A stretch of 64,000 bases of DNA from Protula sp. h YS-2021 (Eukaryota > Annelida > Polychaeta > Sabellida > Serpulidae), in NCBI GenBank assembly GCA_949752745.1, contig OX457034.1:6711625-6775624 (forward strand), given 5' to 3'. The notes under the pieces were generated by a model, which saw only the letters and a program-made list of their open reading frames with translations, was not told the DNA's origin and made no database searches. The translations under genes were made by a program, and so were the position numbers. Position 1 is the stretch's first letter, and the number at the start of each line of letters is the position of its first letter. Positions 4,545 through 59,960 of this stretch are shown one piece after another.

Positions 4545-6687
4545 ATGGTTATTTGTAGTGTCTTTGGCTGTTCGAACCGCTCAGGGAGGGATAAAAATGT
4601 TCGATTTTTCAATTTTCCGAGGTTGAGACTCGCGCAAGGGCATGAAACTAGGCAATTAAGTGACAGAAGGAGGAGGGAGTGGAAGGCAAAAATCAACCGA
4701 AAATTAGATAATAAAAGCTGGGAAAATACGAAAGTTTGCTCCAAACACTTTGTTAATGGTAAGTTTTGTTTATACGGAACAGGAAATGAGTTTGTATTAT
4801 TATTTATCTGTCAAGGCCAGTAAATAGGCGAATGGGGTTGCTTGTTGCATATGTTTTACGTCACGTAACCAATGTAAATTATTATGGTTTTATTTCCTTC
4901 TTCGAACTGGGCGAAATTTCAATTGAATGTTAAAAATTATAAAAGTTTCTATTACTCATTTTGTTTAAATAATATTAAAGCATATCAAATGATGTTTTAT
5001 TTACGGGCATTGTCATTTCATATAATGCCTCCCATGCATTTTTTCAGTCTTTAAAATGAGCGATAATGGGATGTTCGGGAAGGTATCCCGACAATCCATA
5101 TAACGACAATTCATCTAGAGACAATCCATCTAGCGACAAATTAATCCAACTCAATACATAAACGAGTGTTTCGTTTTAAAAATGGGTATATTGTTTTAGT
5201 TTTTATATTCTTAAAATATATACAGACAATCAATGAAATAGTTTTTTTTTTCAATATTTTTGTGCAGGAGTGTGTGCATATCTCCACGATTATTTGAGTC
5301 CCTCATGGCTACCTACTCTAGAGCTTGGATATAAAAGGGCGGAGAAAACGCAGATCAGCGTAGAAAGACATGATAGGACACAGAAGCGCAGAGAATTTCC
5401 GGAGAAAAGAGAGGCGGCAGAATCGTTATTGCTGTTAGCTGCAAACGAAGAAAAGGTTCGGCCTACGTAGTATAATTAATGAAAGCTGACTCGGAGCTAG
5501 GTTGGTACAAGGAAATTTAGTAATGTTGATATTGTTGTCAACTTATGTAAAGCTTACTCGGAGCTAGGTTTGTACGAGGAAATTTAGTAATGTTGATATT
5601 TCCCACTTATGTAAACTGTCATTTTCATAACCATTTATAACTATTTATTTCACCTCTACAGGAAGAGGCAACGATCACAGACAACGAAAAGTATATTCAA
5701 ACTTATTTGACATCAGCCGCCATAGATGCTTTAGAAGAGGAGCATAGGAACACATTGACTGAAACTAAAAGGACCAATAATGTATATGATATCGCCACTT
5801 ATCAAGAAAATCCGGATAAGGTTTCTTTTTATACCGGATTACCTAGCTTAGCAGTTTTATTTATAGTTTTTGAATTTGTACAAGATAAGATGTGTAATAC
5901 AAGTAGAGTATTGACAAAATGGCAGGAATTTTTACTGTGTTTGATAAAGTTGCGCATGAATTTTTTGTTTAAGGATATGTCATACGATTTACATGTGAGT
6001 GTGAAGACAGTTCAAAAAAGTTTTCATGCTACCTTAGATGTGTTGTTTTCTCGCTTGAAGGATCTGATTGCATGGCCTAATAGAGATGATCTTCGTAGTT
6101 CAATGCCTCAGTGTTTTAAATATTTATATGGCAACCGTGTAGTTGTAATAGTCGATTGTTTTGAACTCTTTTGTGAAAAGCCAAGTGGGATGCTGAGTCA
6201 GACATTAAGCTTTTCCCATTACAAACATCACACAACTATAAAATATTTAATAGGAATATCGCCGCAAGGTGTTATCACTTTTATATCGGCGGGTTGGGGC
6301 GGTAAAGTATCAGATAAACATATTACTGATAATTGTGGTATACTTGATAACTTATTACCTGGCGATATATTCATGGCCGATCGGGGTTTTAGTATAAAAG
6401 AAGAAGTTAGTTTTTATCAAGCGGAACTAGTAATACCCGACTTTACAAAAGGGAAAAAACAGCTACATCCTTTAGAAGTAGAGAATACACGGAAAATAGC
6501 ATCGGTGCGAATACATGTAGAGAGAGTGATTGGGCTTTTGAAAAAGAAATTTAGAATTTTTGAGAGCAACGTGCCCATTGAATACATGAAATTAAAAAAA
6601 GAAGCTAGTATCCCTACTATTGATAAAATTGTAACTGTTTGCTGTTCTATTACAAATATGTCAAAATCAATAGTGCCATTCGAGTAA
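4545..6687 (+). CDS. THAP-domain DDE transposase (ISL2EU transposon ORF1)
   Basis: Three exons (4545-4758, 5268-5455, 5662-6687) join in phase to give 475 residues. The junctions are AATG|GTAAGT, TGTGCAG|GA, AAAAG|GTTCGG and CTCTACAG|GA. Residues 4-90 form a THAP zinc finger (C2CH): Cys4 and Cys9, then Cys65 and His68 in VCSKHF, and a PTLELGY end motif completed only by splicing to exon 2. Residues 91-150 are a charged linker. The C-terminal half is a DDE_Tnp_4-type nuclease with Asp299 in VIVDCFE, Asp374 in FMADRGF and Glu421 in HVERVIG as the likely metal-binding triad. It would bind the transposon ends and cut DNA. Its 3' end converges on the YqaJ gene. The only weak splice site is the second donor (GTTCGG). 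Confidence 0.88.
5484..5615. repeat. Tandem duplication (about 66 bp x 2) in transposase intron 2
   Basis: Two adjacent units read CTCGGAGCTAGGTT(G/T)GTAC(A/G)AGG, then AAATTTAGTAATGTTGATATT, then (C)CACTTATGTAAA. Each begins with a motif also found at the end of the foldback element (GACTCGGAGCTAG at about 3698-3710). The pair lies inside the 206-bp intron. Confidence 0.75.
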
Positions 6688-6717
6688 TTAAAAAATGAAT
6701 CAAATGGAATTATGCTT

Positions 6718-6723
6718 TTTATT
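6718..6723 (-). terminator. Poly(A) signal of the YqaJ gene
   Basis: AATAAA on the minus strand lies about 27 bp beyond the stop codon at 6750-6752, in the short gap between the convergent transposon genes. Confidence 0.6.
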
Positions 6724-6749
6724 CAATCAGTTCTTTACTTGAATATCGT

Positions 6750-8606
6750 TCATTTGCAGAAATTGCAATACCATTTCTTTTTGGGAATTTTCTTTATATT
6801 CAAACACTTTACATGAAACCACTGAATTTTACAATTGCTGTTTTCGCACAGTATCATTTTTGTGCCATCATCTGGGGATTTGCAAACACAATACAATTTA
6901 TTTGAATCGTCCATCTTTGGCACAATGCTGCACGCATTAATATTGTTGTTTACATCTATATTACCACTATTTTTAGAGAGAAGTTTTGACCCGGTATCTT
7001 GAATAACCACTTCAGCCAAGTCAAATTCTGTGCTTTTCAACTCTGTAATGGTTGGGATGTCTACAGAAGGGCGTTGTGTAAAATGTTTGAACACTAATTC
7101 TGGCATAACAATTTGAGAATGGTACAATTTAGTTTGTTTTAAAATAATTTCCCACAAATCATAATTTGGACAGATTCGTTCGACATGCAATGCACAATAC
7201 GGGGTCCATACAACAAAATCGCAGTAATCTGAATTGCTAACAAAGATACGAGTTTGAACCTGATAATAATAAGGATGTTCTTGCTTTAATTGCAACTTCT
7301 CGTCTGGGCCTTTTACCAAATATGGTACGCTAAGTAATGTACTTTCTTTTTGTGAGTAGGGGCATTTTATTTCCAAGCAACCTTTCCCACAACATTCACA
7401 CTCTACAATGCCATCTGGGGAAGCTCCTAAAATTGGAAAATCCTTGTTTAAAAATAAACCACAGTCACTTACTTTGAAATTTACATGTTCATTTTTGACT
7501 GATTTAATATATTTCCGTTTCGCTACACTCTCATTAGATTTACCCCATTTCAATGCTTGTGTTTCAAAACCACGCTTATCCTCGTAGCAAATTCTCTTTA
7601 ATAATGATAGAGATACATTTTGCAAATTGGTTTTTACACAATGGTAAACATTTGAAGATGTAATACGACCTGATCTCATACGAAACCATAAATCACACTT
7701 GGATTGCTTTGTTGTATCATTTTGTACATTTTTCGCTTGTTGGTCATTGAATGACACATCTATTGCGCTGCAAAAAAATACTTTATCCTCGTAAGTTGTG
7801 AGGCTTCTATTTACATCGTACAGCTTTGTAAGATCTTTTGGATAGCTTTTAGGCTTGGGAGCAAAAGTATGTGAAAAGCCAGGTGTGACCGACAATATGG
7901 CAGCTGAAGGATACACTTTGGACAATTTTAAAAGGAAATTAGACATCTCATTTTTAGTCGGGGAAGGTACATTATTTTCCGCATTCATAGATGTGTCACT
8001 CGTTGAAATGCCAGCCATTTTCTTTCGTTTTGAAGCAGAGGTAAAATCCATTTCCCTTATCCTCTTTGGTGCGATGTTTGATGTATTGCTTGGAAAAAGC
8101 CAGTAAGCGAGAACATCTGTACATGACTGTTCGTTTCGTAACTTGGTTGCAGCTTCTAAATTAAAAAGTAAAGCTCCGACATGTGAACAGCTCTCCCCTA
8201 GTCCTGCCATGCAGTTACAGTGTGCTGATTCTATTATTCCAGATGACTTTACACACACCCATGCTTTTAATGGCCTTTCGTTCAAACGCATGGAATGATT
8301 GACCGTGGCTAATATGACATGTCTGTCATTGTGACACTTGTGTAGTCTCTCCTGCACCCAGCCATCGATAAAGTACCTATAGGCCTCGAGTGATTTGTAA
8401 TTTTTTAACTGTTCTTTTGAATAAGCTGACGTTTCAAAGATGAGATAATTTACAATGTCCATATTTGTAACATCAGGCCAGTCCATGAAATTTTCCTTAC
8501 TGTATTCCCCTCTTGGTATAGCGTAAGGATCGTAGCCAATATAATCGACTTTGTTCATATATCGCTGCTTCACATCACCAATCAGCTGTTCTGCGTAGGA
8601 TGACAT
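6750..8606 (-). CDS. SWIM / YqaJ-nuclease / PHD-finger protein (ISL2EU transposon ORF2)
   Basis: A single 618-residue open exon. Residues 128-145 are a SWIM zinc finger (Cys130-x-Cys132, then Cys140-x-His142). About residues 305-475 are a YqaJ/lambda-exonuclease-like domain: RSGRITSSN, then WGKSNESVA (about 354-362), LGASPDGIV with Asp398, CLEIKCP with Glu412 and Lys414, and a YYYQVQTRIFV strand. Residues 567-618 form a PHD finger with a C4HC3 pattern (CVC, then C and C, then WFHVKC, then WYCNFC). It is the expected partner nuclease of ISL2EU elements. The ATG at 8606 is preceded by a good acceptor, TTTTCTGCTTGCAG, 10 nt upstream. A leader exon therefore probably starts near the inverted repeat at 8932-8947, where a donor AAAATAG|GTAATATT is present. 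No disabling changes were seen. Confidence 0.9.
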   Translation of the reverse strand: MSSYAEQLIGDVKQRYMNKVDYIGYDPYAIPRGEYSKENFMDWPDVTNMDIVNYLIFETSAYSKEQLKNYKSLEAYRYFIDGWVQERLHKCHNDRHVILATVNHSMRLNERPLKAWVCVKSSGIIESAHCNCMAGLGESCSHVGALLFNLEAATKLRNEQSCTDVLAYWLFPSNTSNIAPKRIREMDFTSASKRKKMAGISTSDTSMNAENNVPSPTKNEMSNFLLKLSKVYPSAAILSVTPGFSHTFAPKPKSYPKDLTKLYDVNRSLTTYEDKVFFCSAIDVSFNDQQAKNVQNDTTKQSKCDLWFRMRSGRITSSNVYHCVKTNLQNVSLSLLKRICYEDKRGFETQALKWGKSNESVAKRKYIKSVKNEHVNFKVSDCGLFLNKDFPILGASPDGIVECECCGKGCLEIKCPYSQKESTLLSVPYLVKGPDEKLQLKQEHPYYYQVQTRIFVSNSDYCDFVVWTPYCALHVERICPNYDLWEIILKQTKLYHSQIVMPELVFKHFTQRPSVDIPTITELKSTEFDLAEVVIQDTGSKLLSKNSGNIDVNNNINACSIVPKMDDSNKLYCVCKSPDDGTKMILCENSNCKIQWFHVKCLNIKKIPKKKWYCNFCK

Positions 8607-8996
8607 GACGTTGCCTCTGCAAGCAGAAAATAAAAATATAATAAATAAACAATGGTTCCTACAGTTTATATATTTATTATTAAAGTAATAAATGAAATAT
8701 GTTTTTACAACCTCGTATTTTTGAGGGAAAATTACACTCTTAAAAACTATTGTATTCGAAAGCTTACTTTAAATATCACTATATCGCTCACTTTTAGCGT
8801 CAAATTTCCCATTTATAGGGCACGAAAAATTACAACTTCCAAATAACAAACATAAATAACATTGTTTTTATATCTGATGAATAATTTTTGAAAAGAATGA
8901 ATATTAATCATAATATTACCTATTTTGTTTCCTGTTCTCCAAAATGGTTGACAGGTATTTGTTGTCTATGGTTACGACCAGAAAGGAAAACAAAGA

Positions 8997-50797: not shown

Positions 50798-53045
50798 TTA
50801 GAATCTCGATTCAACAAGCTGGCCTTTTTGTTGCTTGGTCGCTCGTCTTTCGGCTTCAAGAGCATCTGAAATATTAAATGGATAAATAAATTATGACATT
50901 ACATCGGTTTTTCTTCAATAAAATATTTGGTTATTCGAATTTTACCATGTTTTGGGTGTTTTAAATCGTAGATAGCACGTGACAGTTTGTGTATAATTTG
51001 CCAACCAACAGCATGTTAATGTGCTAATTCTCAGCTCATTCTTGGTGTAATTACCTTGCAAAATATTATCGCCAAGATCAGACTCCGACGAAGTATGCAC
51101 ATGGACGGCTTGTGGTCTTTCCATGCCTTGTCTGTGAAGTAGCCAAAACGTCTCAATATCCAAGCCCTTCAAATTGAAAATTAAAAATTCAAAATTTGAC
51201 ATGTCTGATTTAAAATCTGTGAACATTATCTGTTAAATTACTTGTCACACAATATCTTATCCTACGCAGAGATGATGGACAGTTTGATGCACAAGAGCAG
51301 AAAGGTTGCACATGTTGACTTTTTGTAGCGTTAATGTTTAATACTTTCCTTTCCTTGTAGATTCTACGAGCCATTTACTTAAATTGATCAACGAAGCCAA
51401 ATCAAAATCACTGGGAATTGCACTTGTACATGTCCTGTTAGCGGTCCGTTAACAGTGTTTTCGAAGCCAACTAATGTCAATTATTGTTTTTGATTTTGTA
51501 CTTCACGCTTCGCTTAACAGCATCGTTTATTATGCGTCTATACAATTAATTATTAATTTTTGTATTGAACATACGAACATGTTGTCCTCATTCAAAAGTT
51601 TGATCAATATGAAACAATGTTCACTCAAATCAAGTTAAAATATGTTCAATTACATATTAGATAAAGGGCAGTATCCTGGAAAATGTCACATCCGAACTCT
51701 ATAATGTCAACTGCTGACAATAAATCATGTAACAAATAGTCCTACGTGTGCTTTTCTGTCATCCCTGGGAGTGATCACAAATCCGCCACATTTGAGGAGG
51801 AGAGCTCGTGTCACCACGCTTATTTGTACCTTCCCAGCTAAAAACAAATAGCACACATCGCTATATTGCATTACGAAAACGCTTATCTGTACCTTCCCAG
51901 CTAAAATACAAAAATTATCATCATGCTTCAAACATCTGTACCTTCTCAGGTAAAACACACATATTATACATCATGCAAAAGTGTATGTCCATGTTGCAAC
52001 GCCCGTATTTCCAAACTCATATCTACATTCAGTACATTCATCACGTACTTCTTAAATAGTAGTGTACGAGAACAATAAATTAAAATTTTTACGAATCTCT
52101 CTGCCCCATAAGATGAATTCTAAAGCAATATTTCCAAAATGAGAACACTAATACAGCAAAATGGCTCAGGGTACAAAAGCACTTGACTGAGTGACACCGG
52201 GATAAGTCCAAACTAGCTTTCATGAAAATCAAAAACCAAACAAATACTGATACCTTTTTGAATATTAATACCAGGTTTTAAAATAACATGATAGCTTCCT
52301 TACTTTCGCCCGTGCTTTCCATTTCTGCAGCACGTAAAACGGTGTCACCAAATAATGTGTACCGTGGCATCTTGTCTCCGAGAATTCCTGCTACGACTGG
52401 ACCTGAAATGGCGGGCTTGGTATTTGAGAAATTGTGTTATATATCCATGCCGTATTTGAGAAATATTTGAGAAAGCTTAAATTGTGTTATATATCCATGT
52501 CGTATTTGATAAATTTTGTTACATATAAATGTATTTTTAGATATTTCTTGACAGTCGAACATTTCTCTACAGTGGTTAAAATAAAAATATTGTGCGAACT
52601 GTCTCTGGATTGAAATATATCTGTGCCTAAAATATTACAAATACCATATTTTTTAATTGCAGGATGAAACCAAATTAAACCTGTCTTCAAATTACCGCAA
52701 CAATAAATCTTATTCAAATCAATAAACTAAACACCTTTCAAGAGTCCCATCACATCGTATCATCAAAAGCACACCTGTATGAATTCCACTTCGTATTCCA
52801 TAGTTTTGACCAGGAACATGAGGTATTTCAAGCTGGGAAAGTGAATCAATTATATTCAAAGCCATTGTTGCAATTTCCGGAGCGTGTCGATCACCATTCC
52901 TGTGAGGGATACCTTTTGGAAAAACAAAGAACATGCAATCTGGGTTCATGTGATATAATTGCATTTAGTTTTGTTCTTCTTTGTCTTTCTCTTCTTGGTA
53001 AGTTTCTTCTTGGTTATTGTTCTTGTTTTCGGTATTTTTGTTCTT

Positions 53046-53131
<86 letters not shown>

Positions 53132-56100
53132 GTATTGTATTGTTTAAGATACCTTTCAACTGCTATGGTCATGTCGGGATCCAACTGCCACATTATGCTA
53201 AAATGGGGCATTCCAGCCCTCCTTCTAACCCTTAGATTTGGAGTGCCTCACAGGGTAGCAAGGAGGAGTCCCAATTTTAAAGTCTTAGGTATGACCCGAC
53301 CGGGGTTTGAACCTACGATCTTCCAGTCTCGAGGGCTGACACTCTAACCATTAGACCACCGAGGCTGGTATTATTATTACTATTATTATTACTATTATTA
53401 TTATTACTATTATTATTAATATTATTATTATTACTATTATTATTATTATTATGTCGAATTGCTCAGATTTTCCGCATATACACATATATGTATAGATTAT
53501 AGCTTGGCATACCAGAAGCAACCATGTATGCGTCTCCGATAGTCTCCACCTTGTACACATCGTATTTCTGCAGCACCTCATCCAGATTGATGTACAGTGT
53601 ATTCAGCATGTTAACCACCTGATAGTAGAAAATGAAATAACACGTAGATACACATGAAACAAGACTTTGTCGTTTATCATGCCATAAAGTAACGGGTGAT
53701 AAGGTGACTGCACGTTACAAGGAGACATTTAATAATAATACAGAGTTTTAGCAATATATAAATAAAACACTTCGCATTGAATACTTGGGAATGAGCTTCT
53801 GCGCAGGTAAGCTCTGTGAGACTAGCATGGCGTACGGGCACAGATAAACGTGATATACTCGCGCAGCTGAGCTCCATGAGACAACCATGATATACTTGCA
53901 CAAGTGTTCTCTGCGAGTCGAGCATAAAGTGCCTGGACAGGTGAGCGCTAAGAGAAAAGTACCACTTGCTTGCACAGGTGAGCTCTGTGAAACAAACATG
54001 ACGAATGTACACGGGTGATCTGTTTGACAAGAAAGATGTGCAGGCACAGGGGAGCTCTGTGAGACAATCGTGATGTACTTGCATAGGTGAGCTCTGTAAG
54101 ACAAGCATGACGTACCTGCACAGGTGAGCTCTTTGAGCTCAAGTTTGTGAATCCAACCATATCATTGAAATAGACAGTGACTTCCTCAAAAGCCTCTGCA
54201 TCAACTGCTTCATTCCTCTTTAGACGCTCTGCTACTTGTTTTGGGAGCATTTGATAGAGTAGGACATCAGTGCGTTTCTGTTCCTTACTCAGAGCTTTCG
54301 TTCTGTAAAACATAAGAAATAAACCTGTGGTCACTTTAATATCACTCAATTTTCACATCTGCATCATTACCAATTTGAATCTATATTTATACGATGAGCT
54401 ACAAACCAACTAAGAAAAGCAGAGGACTCACAACAGCAAAGGAGGGTGGCAGATCAAATTTATATAAATTGAAACAAACTTTAACCTAGCTGCACAAAGT
54501 CATGCCTAATTCAAGTTAGAGTCAATCATTCAAAATTAACAAAATCTTTCATTATATTTTTTCGCTCGTTTCCGTCAGTCTTACGGCTGCTTTTTATATA
54601 TTATTTGTGGAAGACTTGCTAATAACACATTATAACTAGGCCATATCAAAGTAAATTAGGATAAAATTGCAGTTTCTGAGATGAATCCTTACTTGTCAAC
54701 TAATGCCGCTGAGTAATTTTGGATGCTCAATGTAAGGCTAGCTACGGATCTTAGAATAATCGGTGACAGGAGAATAACAAAGGCAAAGAGAGAAGCTATG
54801 AAGGCGATAACTTGTCGGTCTTCAGTTGCCCTTTGGTCCAGACGCTCGCCAATCATTGTCGACAGATTTGTCTTGACAAATAATATTTCATCCAAGTAAA
54901 AACTCATGGCATCAAACCATCTCTTAGCTTCCTGTAATGAGCCATTAATAGCCAATGCTCCCTGCAAACACGTGAATTATACTTAAGACGAGCGGATGTA
55001 GTATTAATAAATTGAAGTCAATTAGAAAGTCTTTCCAGAGAATTTAAATTAAACGGAAAAGATAATTTCCAAAAGCCACTGCAAAGCGATGAGTTCTATC
55101 TCATGGTTTATGGTTTCATGTGAAAAACGACAGCTTAAAATATTCAATTTCTACATCCCAAAGTAGTCACGGAATTGACTTTTATGTTCACCTCCAATAA
55201 CCTTTTAATTATTAATATGCAGCAAAAACTGTAAAATATTGTCAGATGAAAAATAAACTAAAACGGACATACACGGTTACAGAATCAATCGTGCACGGTT
55301 TTATGGTTTTATCAAGTTATGATGTAAAGAAGTTCAAATGTCGAACTTAACGATAGACTGGCGCAAATATGAAACAAAAACTCTCTGGTAAAATTTGTCT
55401 ACAAAGGTGAAGAAATAGTAGTTACCTCAATGCTGGTCGTCCTGATAAAATAGCGCATGTCTCTGACTGTTAGTATTTGTTCTTCTTGTTCTACTCTCGT
55501 TTCGTTCCACATCACTCGCACCTTATCCGAGTAAAGTCGGGCGTTAAACATGGTGTGGTTCCCAATATCTTGAGATTGCAAGAAAAGCAGGTATATCTCG
55601 CGCTCTTTAAAACCACCTTGACTGTAAAACAGGGTGCCTGTTGTAAAAGAAGCAATATGGGCTCTGAAATGGTTCTTGTTAATATTTCGAAAAATAGATC
55701 AAAATCTCTACTATGAATACGGCTGTCGGTCGATTTTTCTAGACCAGGCAGAGAAACTTCTTGATCTGCAGTTTTAGTGACCCGTTTGAGGGATAAGAAA
55801 TAATATTTAAAATGAAAACTGCAGTGAATGTTACATTTCTGGGTTTTGGTATTTTTCTTAGTATTTCTTCATTTTGAACAGGGTAACACAATGCACCAAA
55901 AACAGAAATATTTAGAATAACAAGAAACACATTGCAGGTTCTATACCTTCCTCAGATATTTTCTACCAAGCACGTAAATCAGTCTCAAAAGTTTTGGAAA
56001 ATACAGTAAATCGACCGGCGATAATGATCCAATTTAAGAGATATCGTATGTTATCCCAGTGATATCATTCTTTCCAATCACACTTTTTTATATTTTACAG

Positions 56101-57928
56101 TAATACCGTGTCTTCTAATTTGAATTTTGAATTTGAATTATATTTTAACTTCAAATGATAATTCTAAAAAAGCGATTTCTAATACCAGTTGAACGTTCTA
56201 TTCCAAACGCCTCTAAGGCTTCGGACATTTCAATCAAAGCAACCATGTCTTTCCAGACATAGCCGCTGCTTGCTTCCTGAAGCGCATCGTAAGTCCATTT
56301 CTGAATTCTACCTATAATTAAGTAAGAATTTTTTCAAGGAATAATGTGAATAAAACCATAAAACAAATTTTATTATTTCTCATCCGAATTCGAACTTGAA
56401 CTTTTGAATCTTCTTGGTAATTTTGTGTGAAGGGCATCAGAGGTTTTTTTACTCAAACATGGTTAAATTTATATGATGTAACGCTTTGATTTTATTACTA
56501 AATGTGTTTTCAAACGCAAATGTTTATAGTTGTCTCCGGACCTAATTCTATCCCTTTTATAAAGCCCAGTCATCTCTTCTACATTTCTATTTAAGCAGCC
56601 CGGCCAAGGATGAACAACACGGTTTTCACTAAATTGTGTATTTTGTTTGATAAGTGTTCAGCGAAACCATGTAAAATCATGTAAAAGAACTTGTTATTTA
56701 TTAAATTCTCTTTCAGCAGTTTTGAACTGCAACATTCAGTTCATTGTCGGGTTTGGTTTGGAAGTCGAAATTCAGAGTGCACAGAAACAAGCATCGTACT
56801 CTAATAATCTTAACATATAACACGGCTTAAAAGTGCACTGTTAACTGAACAAACAGAGATAAAATAATGAGAAAAACATGAAATATATTTATTTCAAACT
56901 TTTAGTATAGCTGATGTGACATTTTTTAAGTCAAAACTACAAATTAATACAACATGCACAAACGAAGTATAACAAATTCGTCATTCACTAGCAATAAGCG
57001 TCATATCATCGATAAATATTGTAGTGATAATAGTAGGTGTGGAATTATGACGTAGTGTACATTAGGTTTCTCTCTATTTTTCATATATGTTGTGATATTG
57101 GAAATAAAACAACAAAAACCCGGATATTACGAAACAAATTACTTTTCGAAATGTTTTGGTAACGTTCACAGTAATTGATACAACAGTCACACGCGTCTTA
57201 CCAATAATTTTCCCGTAATATCCAATCTCGTCTATGATAGAAGGGCTTTGCGAATCTATATTGTATCGGTGTCTGATGAAATGTACCGGATATGCAAAAG
57301 AAATACTTTCACTGAATAGTATTTTATCTGAGGAGTTAACAACAACAGCACAGCATACTAGTCAGAAATGTGTCCGTGTTTCCAAAAATATTTCAGAAGC
57401 TAGTCTTAGATTAAGTGATCAAATTTCAGACAAAAGTTGATTTCTATTTCCAAAAGGTAACCGCTTTTTCACTCTCTTTATCAGGCATCAGCTTTTGGCA
57501 ATATAAATTTGATGAATTTTATGAGGAAAAATGCAGCCGTTAACAAATGCTGCCGGGTAATACAATGAGAATCTTCTTTAAAATTGCGCAACATTTACAC
57601 TATGAGGATATTTTGGTAGTTCTGATAATTTTGCGTAAATAACTCTAGACGTATTTCCGCATGTATCATATGTAGTGGTAATGGCGTTGTGTAGTTCAAA
57701 GGCAAAGAACTTAATTTGGTATTCAATAAAGAGTAGCAATCAAAACTCCAACTTTTAAGCCTGATAATTGATCATTTCCTCTACAACTTGCTTTCTAAAA
57801 TGGATCCCTTTGTTCAACCACCTTGAAGACATCACATTCACAATACTGTGAACTTACCAATTGGCTCAGTATAAAACCGAATTTCATCCAACACTGAAGA
57901 ATCCAAGGTATCCAGACTGTATCTGTGT
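50798..57928 (-). CDS. NIT-domain receptor guanylate cyclase (3' exons; N-terminus missing)
   Basis: A membrane cyclase with an extracellular NIT (nitrate/nitrite-sensor-type) domain. Phase-consistent exons: 57858-57928 or 57202-57272 (alternatives), 56186-56311, 55426-55616, 54693-54961, 54116-54302, 53513-53618, 52775-52912, 52304-52402, 51746-51837, 51055-51166, 50798-50865; about 485 residues. NIT signatures are HRYSLD, FGIERST and [16 protein letters not shown] membrane helix ([15 protein letters not shown]) precedes a coiled-coil linker ([14 protein letters not shown]) and the class III cyclase domain: [39 protein letters not shown]. Both metal Asp residues remain, but the usual N-x-A-x-R reads L-x-A-x-E and the purine-selecting Cys is Thr, so activity is doubtful. 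The signal peptide and first NIT exons were not found; they should lie above 57928. Confidence 0.88.
51838..51900 (-). other. Duplicated in-frame splice acceptor region of the cyclase gene
   Basis: The exon starting at 51837 (TTTTTAG|CTGGGAAGGTAC) is preceded by a copy of the same acceptor and exon start, TATTTTAG|CTGGGAAGGTAC, with its first exon base at 51900. The separation is exactly 63 nt and the interval has no stop, so use of the upstream acceptor would add 21 residues, including a second GKVQISV. A third, older copy near 51950 has lost its AG. Confidence 0.75.
53046..53131. repeat. (ATT)n microsatellite
   Basis: About 28 uninterrupted ATT repeats, forming the tail of the adjacent SINE-like element. 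A second imperfect (ATT)n tract lies at 53369-53450. Confidence 0.95.
53132..53367 (-). mobile_element. tRNA-derived SINE in a cyclase intron
   Basis: On the minus strand a tRNA-like head (53367 to about 53290) begins GCCTCGGTGGTCTAATGGTT, with an A-box (TGGTCTAATGGTTAGAG) and a B-box (GGTTCAAACCCC). A tRNA-unrelated body of about 150 bp follows, then an (AAT)n tail at 53046-53131. The anticodon assignment is unsafe because the anticodon arm pairs poorly. It lies in the intron between cyclase exons 53513-53618 and 52775-52912. Confidence 0.8.
53800..54130 (-). repeat. 37-bp tandem array spanning a cyclase exon-intron junction
   Basis: Nine or so diverged units. The first contains the last 15 coding bases of exon 54116-54302 (AGCTCACCTGTGCAG, encoding SSPVQ), its donor GTACGT, and a stretch ending TTACAG. 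Later units keep the same layout: AGCTCACC(T)-x-TGCA(A/G) followed by a GTACAT or GTATAT donor-like site and ending CTCACAG or TTCACAG. The intron thus starts inside an expanded copy of its own splice junction. Confidence 0.85.
57202..57272 (-). other. Alternative 71-nt NIT exon, copy B
   Basis: Acceptor TTTCATCAG|ACACCG and donor ATTATTG|GTAAGA bound 71 nt encoding [20 protein letters not shown] and following residues. It is a homologue of the exon at 57858-57928, which has the same length, phases (2 in, 1 out) and pattern HRY-x-x-D, (V/I)-x-DEI-x-(F/Y)Y. Both fit the next exon at 56186-56311. Confidence 0.75.
57858..57928 (-). other. Alternative 71-nt NIT exon, copy A
   Basis: Acceptor CGCCTGCTAG|ACACAG and donor CCAATTG|GTAAGT bound 71 nt encoding [20 protein letters not shown] and following residues. 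Its best match is copy B, 585 bp downstream in transcription. Upstream coding exons in phase 2 were not found. Confidence 0.75.
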
Positions 57929-58690
57929 CTAGCAGGCGCAACAATCAAAGATAACGTTGGTGAAGCAAAACTTTCAGAAAGTTATAGTATGAAGAATGAT
58001 TGAAACAAGTACCTGAGACATATGTTACACAGCCTTGACACTTTATTAAAAAGGACCTAAAATAAGAATACAGGTAGTGATTTAATTTAAATTTGCAACT
58101 AAATAGTTTCTTCCCATGGATATTCTCAGAAAAATCAAATCAAAATTTGAAAGTTGGAAGTTCAAGCTCTGCAGGCATTTTATTTTAACTAAAAGAACCA
58201 AAAAGAACAGCTCCAAAGTTTTTTGATAAAGGACAAAAAGGACTGTGTGTAAGTCTTTAATTTGTACCAAGACAGTAACTCGCTAAAGACAGAGGCCCGG
58301 TGGATCAAAGTACCAACAGCCTTATTGGGTTAAGGTTTCATACAGAAGGACTTTTTGCATTACTCTGAGTTCAGAAGGCTTTATGCAGAAGGACTGATGG
58401 CATCACTCAATGTTTAGACGTAATATGGTGTGGCTTCAAATAAATCATTATCCACAAGGATTCTCTGTATCACTGAAAGTTTCATTTTTTAGATAAGCTA
58501 TTTCACATTCAGCGGTTTTCAGATAACTTTTTATCACATATTTTCTTAAGAAACAAGGGAGCTTTCTAAAAGTCTTTCTAAAAATCAGAACCAACGGAAT
58601 TTGGAATCAAATTACGTAAGATGCAAGAAAAATTAGAACCAATATTCGTAACGTCAACTTTTACCATGACTTTTTCAATTTATAACTAGA
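57929..58690. other. Upstream of the first recognised cyclase exon
   Basis: Should be an intron of the cyclase gene. No N-terminal NIT exon was recognised here. Confidence 0.4.
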
Positions 58691-59960
58691 GCGGCCAGTA
58701 CACTAAAAACATAAGAGTATAGTCTTATATCACACACTTTCAATCGACACCTATTAAATTTTTTTTTTTAATTTGTAAACAAAAACAAATGTCTCCAGAC
58801 TAAACATAATTCACCAGTAACCATTTTCCATTTTGTTTAGTTTTATTTGAACAAGGGTGTACTATTCTAAGAATAGTAAGTTCTGAAAATAGTACACACT
58901 TCTTCAAATAAAACTAAAAAAGAAAAATGGAAACTGGTTACCAATGAATTTCGGGCTGTCTTTGTCCAATTTTTGAAAAGGGGAGGGAGACGTAACTTGA
59001 TTTCTGGGCATTTCAATCCTCTTTTTATACAAGTTCAGGCTTAGGTGTTTTATTTGTGTTAGTAGGTGGTCATTAAAGACTTTTACTGCACGTCTTTTTG
59101 TCCTGTTCCAGATGGTGGTCGCTAAAACAGGTTTTACTGTACGTCCTTTATATCCCTCTTGAAGTGAAGTTGGTCATTATAGCAGTATTACCGTACGTAC
59201 TTTGTTATCCGAAACTGGAAGTTGGCCACTACAAACACTTTTACTTTACGTCTTTTTATCCGGATCTTGAAGGTGGCAGTTATAAACAGGTTCACCAAAA
59301 TAAGTTATTTTTTGCTAATCTTAACCAGCCCCCTGTCTTAGCTATATAATGTTGGTACGACTCTTAAGGCAACCCTAACCGTTTAAGTCAAAGTTACTGT
59401 AAGGGTTAGTGACCTTGTCTTCGTACATTACCATCGACCAAAAAGCGCTAGAAAGACAATCTTTATAACTGTGCCACACATGACCCACCTCGGTGGGAGA
59501 GTGGGGTAAGGCATTTTGGTGTCAAAATAGTGCACTGCTTGTCATAACACAATGTATTAGATGACCACTTTAAAAGAGAAAGCTGGATACTGCATAAACA
59601 TTGCGAGCCGTTACGTAATTATTCCCATATATGGAACAGCTTGGTAGCCAAATGAAATAGCTGTAGATGTGTAACGCTCAAAAAGGTCCCGGTCCATCAC
59701 ACGAAATGCCAAAAAAGATCGATAATTGTGCTGGATTATGTTTTCTAGAGAATGCAGGAACATTGGAGAATCTTGTGGAAAACGCTGACATCCCAAGCTT
59801 AGTTAATAAATATAATGAGGCAACAAAAGAGCCGACAAAAGGGAGGAAGCAGCTGGGATGTGGGAGACGGACGGGCGAGGGTGAGGGGGTGGAGCGGAAA
59901 GTCGATCCGATTTTCCACCATCGAGATATTTGTACACAATGACGTCCGAGCACATTTGAC
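58690..59960. repeat. Dispersed repeat, copy 1 (paired with 62310-63420)
   Basis: Shares a series of landmarks in the same order with 62310-63420: GCGGCCAG, CACACTTTCAATCGACAC, GTAAACAAAAACAAATGTCTCC, GTCGCTAAAACAG, TAGGTACGAC-like, ACCTTGTCTTTGTA-like, CACCTCGGTGGG and GGGAGGCAG-like sequence. No coding sequence was recognised. A near-perfect inverted repeat lies at about 58830-58945 (CATTTTGTTTAGTTTTATTTGA and its inverse). Confidence 0.7.

Follow-up and report, generated by a model that had tools for sequence, protein, structure and literature searches.

Does a receptor gene of the serpulid annelid Protula sp. h YS-2021 choose between two versions of one short piece of its sensor domain? 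The question arises from a 64,000-nucleotide stretch of DNA (GenBank assembly GCA_949752745.1, contig OX457034.1, positions 6,711,625 to 6,775,624; hereafter the window, whose numbering is used unless another is named), the minus strand of which carries a gene for a predicted NIT-domain receptor with a class III cyclase domain. An earlier note, made from the letters, had pointed to two homologous exons of 71 nt in this gene and had read them as a mutually exclusive pair. The exons, which we call A and B, and the intron between them are:

57858..57928, minus strand, exon A: 71 nt, 23 residues plus (G); covers NIT from the C-terminal end of helix 3 across the turn to halfway along helix 4
57273..57857, minus strand, intron between A and B: 585 nt
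57202..57272, minus strand, exon B: 71 nt, 23 residues plus (G); homologous alternative to exon A

The coordinates and lengths noted for the pair are correct. Each exon is preceded by AG and followed by GTAAG, both end in a Gly codon that the next exon, E3, completes, and 39 of the 71 bases are identical and 32 different. Outside the exons no clear similarity was found over 300 bases per side (2–9 matches per 20 bases in an ungapped comparison). That the two peptides are related, as had been claimed, is confirmed by a profile built from 16 homologous segments (12 from database proteins and four from the animal's own paralogues, with A and B excluded): of the 122 open 71-nt segments bounded by AG and GT in the window, both strands counted, the two best are A at 43.3 and B at 33.0, and the next reaches -14.6. 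Adjacent homologous internal exons (71 and 71 nt, across a 585-nt intron) of equal length and phase, with a length that is not a multiple of three, are what this pair has in common with the mutually exclusive exon clusters described in PMC5740500, a human atlas of such clusters, and in PMC9741552; in contrast to the clusters of the atlas, the NIT pair is read here from genomic sequence. No third copy was found on either strand at 56001–113000 of the window-extended stretch, using a profile trained with A, B and a C5 paralogue, and the genome-wide exon search reported no further copies besides the paralogues' own segments, its two weak extra rows having E values of 2.5 and 9.1 (C2:65.3 Mb and C6).

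Whether the two exons can replace each other depends on their neighbours, which are:

67316–67204 of the window-extended stretch (L009 4316–4204), minus strand, mid exon: outside the window; placed by tblastn and a profile of 13 homologous segments
56186..56311, minus strand, E3: common exon after A or B; its GIER holds the Arg that is matched, in the alignment, to the helix 5 arginine of the NasR pocket

The mid exon ends in ...AACAG with two codon bases left over, and E3 starts at 56311. The AG of the mid exon and the A that opens A or B form AGA (Arg), the G that closes A or B and the GT of E3 form GGT (Gly), and both the mid-A-E3 and the mid-B-E3 frames are open through to the stop codon; the matching phases claimed for A and B thus hold against their true neighbours. 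If A and B are joined, the frame reads ...EPIDTDTI and then meets a stop, and if both are skipped a stop follows immediately after LNR. Because 71 nt is not divisible by three, one of the exons has to be chosen. This frame lock, on which the earlier note relied, stands for the consensus sites, where both exons or neither lead to an early stop, but it is not absolute, since alternative sites allow in-frame joining of both (see below). The equal length and phase of A and B are due to common descent and are therefore not independent evidence. Transcripts with both exons or neither would reach a stop after a few codons, and the expected outcome is either nonsense-mediated decay or an ectodomain cut short.

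What argues that neither copy is simply a relic? In a neutral-drift simulation, one copy was allowed to drift from the other to 39/71 identity, in 20,000 runs for each direction. The open frame was retained in 6,721 runs when B was derived from A and in 6,462 when A was derived from B, the splice sites in 451 and 404, and the six residues common to the family (H, R, Y, D, E and Y) in 0 and 1, while the observed profile score was not reached in any run of either direction. A 21-row alignment of the family, A and B included, shows no variation at four of these residues (H, R, E and the final Y), and D does vary; in a 31-row alignment without A and B, R and the final Y are again invariant. By codon position 1/2/3, A and B are identical at 11/17/9 of 23, and the shared exons and the C3 paralogue, compared over six blocks with none dropped, at 203/246/119 of 329. 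The second- and third-position identities are close (74/39% for A–B against 75/36% for the shared exons and C3), whereas the first is lower in A–B (48% against 62%), so that the divergence and constraint of A versus B would be about those of whole paralogous genes. Since the invariant residues are kept and the codon-position pattern resembles that of the shared exons, both A and B must, by this comparison, have long been under purifying selection at the protein level in the past, which still allows for a recent death of one copy or of the gene. A matches four paralogues at 11–12 of 23 residues and B at 9–12, and the two match each other at 10 of 23; therefore the duplication is old.

Because the phases fit one exon at a time, other combinations run into stops and both copies bear the mark of past purifying selection, mutually exclusive splicing, as originally proposed, is well supported by the anatomy of the locus and is probably the best reading of it. 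An old tandem exon duplication would have produced A and B, and in any one transcript of the NIT receptor one or the other would join the mid exon to E3.

The rest of the gene could be followed to its end within the window, E3 to E12 (from 56311 to the stop at 50798) being placed by reading frame and GT/AG sites:

68408–68148 of the window-extended stretch (L009 5148–5408), minus strand, TM1 exon: outside the window; placed as the mid exon was
55426..55637, minus strand, E4: later part of NIT; acceptor set from homologues
54693..54961, minus strand, E5: contains the end of NIT and a putative TM2, judged by eye from its hydrophobicity
54116..54302, minus strand, E6: HNOBA-type signalling helix and start of the cyclase domain (FNDMVGF)
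53513..53618, minus strand, E7: cyclase
52775..52912, minus strand, E8: cyclase
52304..52402, minus strand, E9: cyclase; catalytic-motif Asn and Arg substituted
51746..51837, minus strand, E10: end of the cyclase domain
51055..51166, minus strand, E11
50798..50865, minus strand, E12: contains the stop codon

A start of E4 at 55637 was chosen because the other acceptor considered, at 55661, brings in eight residues present in no homologue of the alignment. The first coding exon was not found. The chain with A, from the mid exon on, scores 54.3 bits for NIT (PF08376; curated cut-off 24.9), 183.3 bits for the cyclase (PF00211; curated cut-off 21.9) and 32.0 bits for HNOBA, and the B version, as a shorter chain, scores 59.0 bits for NIT. 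This supports a NIT receptor with a cyclase domain, in agreement with the receptor type that the earlier note had recognised. Hydrophobic stretches in the TM1 exon and E5, both judged by eye, may be the transmembrane segments on either side of NIT, and the predicted architecture would then be a first transmembrane segment (TM1), NIT ectodomain, second transmembrane segment (TM2), signalling helix and class III cyclase domain. Separately, at 51820–51990, two copies of the opening of E10 together with the acceptor (TTTTAGCTGGGAAGGTACA), and a third, partial one, occur in the intron before E10 and are possible decoy acceptors.

The complete class III catalytic set comprises two metal Asp, an Asn and an Arg. 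The window protein retains both metal Asp, in FNDMVGF and GDAYM, while in E9 the Asn and Arg are replaced (LRAAE) where the usual catalytic-motif sequence is RYCLFGDTVNTASRMES; these two positions also vary in several bivalve homologues. Since two catalytic residues are replaced, cyclase activity is uncertain, and activity of the window protein by itself is doubtful. Heterodimers with complementary halves, by analogy with soluble guanylate cyclase, would be a guess. The paralogues differ in the same respect: that on C3 keeps both metal motifs (FFSDMVSF and GDAYM), those on C2 (C2:89194650) and C4 (C4:88513520) lack both metal-Asp motifs, and the one C5 copy analysed has the Asp in the first motif (QTDMAAF) and lacks the second. 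The C2, C4 and C5 copies are thus candidate pseudo-cyclase NIT receptors.

Several observations weigh against mutually exclusive use of A and B. The assembled TM1 exon contains a +1 frameshift at a GGGG run just after ERDMSALYV, so that SISPDSKRFL continues in another frame, while in the paralogues the equivalent of this exon reads through; the shift may be an error in the sequence or a genuine lesion, and in the latter case this gene copy may be non-functional. Just upstream, outside the window (L009 5350–6318), lies a tandem array of 93 bp in 10.7 copies (90% match), whose unit includes the TM1 exon's own acceptor and opening bases, making it an exon-derived minisatellite with about ten possible decoy 3' splice sites. 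The shared E3 matches four paralogues at 22–24 of 41 residues, whereas these match one another at 38–40 of 41, a rapid divergence of the gene for which relaxed constraint is another possible explanation. On the profile the 16 homologues score 43.0–68.4; none of them scores as low as B, and A is close to the bottom of their range. Finally, among 16 GT and 11 AG sites within 150 nt, those presumed to be used included, there are on paper 22 in-frame combinations of A and B, and a search of the region 56200–59200 for RNA pairing that could impose the choice gave nothing convincing, with at most 24 nt at 71% complementarity from one intron to another. Steric exclusion of A–B splicing, which we also considered, is unlikely given the 585-nt intron. 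The intron before A contains at 58808–58950 a hairpin of about 140 bases (arms of 41 and 27 nt, 85–88% complementary) that resembles a short mobile element.

Do these observations favour another explanation? After a long functional period the gene, or one exon of the pair, may now be dead, with A and B as recent relics of which one or neither is used. The frameshift, the array, the loss of the catalytic Asn and Arg and the rapid divergence would all fit this, but a one-base run-length error is a known type of assembly fault and could account for the frameshift, the exons downstream of it, which add up to about 1.6 kb of coding sequence, are all open and have GT/AG sites, the six blocks compared with C3 show the codon pattern of purifying selection, and the simulation is incompatible with long neutral decay of either exon; we consider such a death improbable. 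Far less credible is a protein with a duplicated hairpin, in which both exons are included in frame through other splice sites. Many of the sites in the 22 combinations are poor by eye, and the one fair acceptor, at 57327 behind a good pyrimidine tract, would add 42 residues within a helical bundle; no homologue in the alignments compared has an insertion of such size, and the matched consensus sites yield a stop. We give as little weight to the idea that B (or A) is part of a transcript of its own, such as one from an internal promoter that encodes a short receptor: the open frame of B does run upstream to 57361, but the B acceptor resembles that of A, and the product would be without TM1 and the first NIT helices, no search aimed at a start site or promoter there having been made.

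What would the exchange do to the receptor? The earlier note placed the segment in the ligand-sensing NIT domain and suggested that splicing could switch ligand preference. The segment does lie within NIT, but the 23 recoded residues run from the last part of helix 3 through the turn to halfway along helix 4, a hairpin away from the ligand arginines. In an alignment with the NIT domain of NasR (PDB 4akk), a bacterial RNA-binding regulator of 15% identity, within the homologue profile, the equivalents of the nitrate-pocket arginines of helices 1 and 5 are found in QIERDMSALYV (TM1 exon) and FGIERST (E3), both in exons common to the A and B isoforms. Because the pocket arginines sit in shared exons, one would not at first expect the ligand to change, and the switch of preference is not supported. 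The exon swap would instead tune the sensitivity of the sensor, its gating or its dimer pairing. A fuller picture, in which this serpulid makes two NO/nitrate-type sensors by swapping a NIT hairpin, the cyclase, having kept the metal-binding half of its active site and lost the other, needs a partner, and splicing picks the tuning or the partner, we put forward tentatively, as a possibility with the odds against it. If it is true that two isoforms differ in a single NIT hairpin, they would be a natural probe for the residues that set the ligand response and for the site of expression of each form.

Is the arrangement peculiar to this gene? The segment occurs in at least ten other loci of the genome (these counts are lower bounds), on C2, C3, C4 and in seven tandem copies on C5 (4.01–4.17 Mb), and in all of them the part equivalent to A/B and that equivalent to E3 match as one open frame with no stop, as in an uninterrupted exon. 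In the four paralogues studied at base level the position and phase of the upstream intron are the same, and in four more distant NIT genes (L001–L004) the segment lies within long single-exon frames of 466–529 codons. As the segment is a single exon in the paralogous loci, the window gene appears to stand alone, of the loci examined, in having the intron after the hairpin and the exon duplication, be it through gain of the intron here or its loss elsewhere. Around four of the ten paralogue loci a search for a duplicate hairpin gave one clear copy each, the next matches having E values of at least 0.16. The seven tandem NIT receptor loci on C5 (C5:4014358–4166630) are spaced at 24–26 kb. Close relatives were not found in the protein collection, where the best full-length match is 45% identical (among the best 120 of 429 matches), nor in a second search of it for transcripts or close relatives (best match 42%, 16 matches); at DNA level the search covered the animal's own genome. 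Two Crassostrea proteins considered as A/B-type isoforms, P0125 ('isoform X2') and P0136, differ over their whole length and look like paralogues.

NIT receptor cyclases are present in many invertebrate lineages (PMC7400543), and in Platynereis larvae NIT-GC1 is needed for NO feedback to the ciliary photoreceptors (PMC10584369). With the animal NIT guanylate cyclases of these papers (placozoan and others in PMC7400543, NIT-GC1 and NIT-GC2 of Platynereis in PMC10584369) the window gene has in common the NIT domain flanked by putative transmembrane segments, the C-terminal cyclase and both nitrate-type arginines; unlike them, it encodes the hairpin as an exon of its own in two versions and has the catalytic Asn and Arg replaced. 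The earlier note knew of no described mutually exclusive NIT exons, and in the open-licence literature we likewise found none: no paper there that names a NIT domain and a guanylate cyclase also uses the words 'alternative splicing' or 'mutually exclusive', and the papers that mention mutually exclusive exons as well as a guanylyl cyclase are, by their titles and the beginnings of their abstracts, not about NIT receptors. The event would be of an ordinary splicing kind, in a little-studied receptor family.

Elsewhere in the window, at 5641–8768, there are two convergent genes of mobile-element type, for a DDE_Tnp_4 transposase on the plus strand and a YqaJ nuclease with a PHD finger on the minus strand. 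In the same genome, the mitochondrial COX1 (L055 1369–3186, C218; code 5) agrees with a serpulid origin: among the 120 matches listed out of 7,999 scored candidates, the top entry stands at 63% over 87%, and the best ones with a species name are Ficopomatus enigmaticus (62% over 82%) and Hydroides elegans (58% over 87%), both serpulids. Its frame is open to 605 residues, compared with 405–595 among the matches listed.
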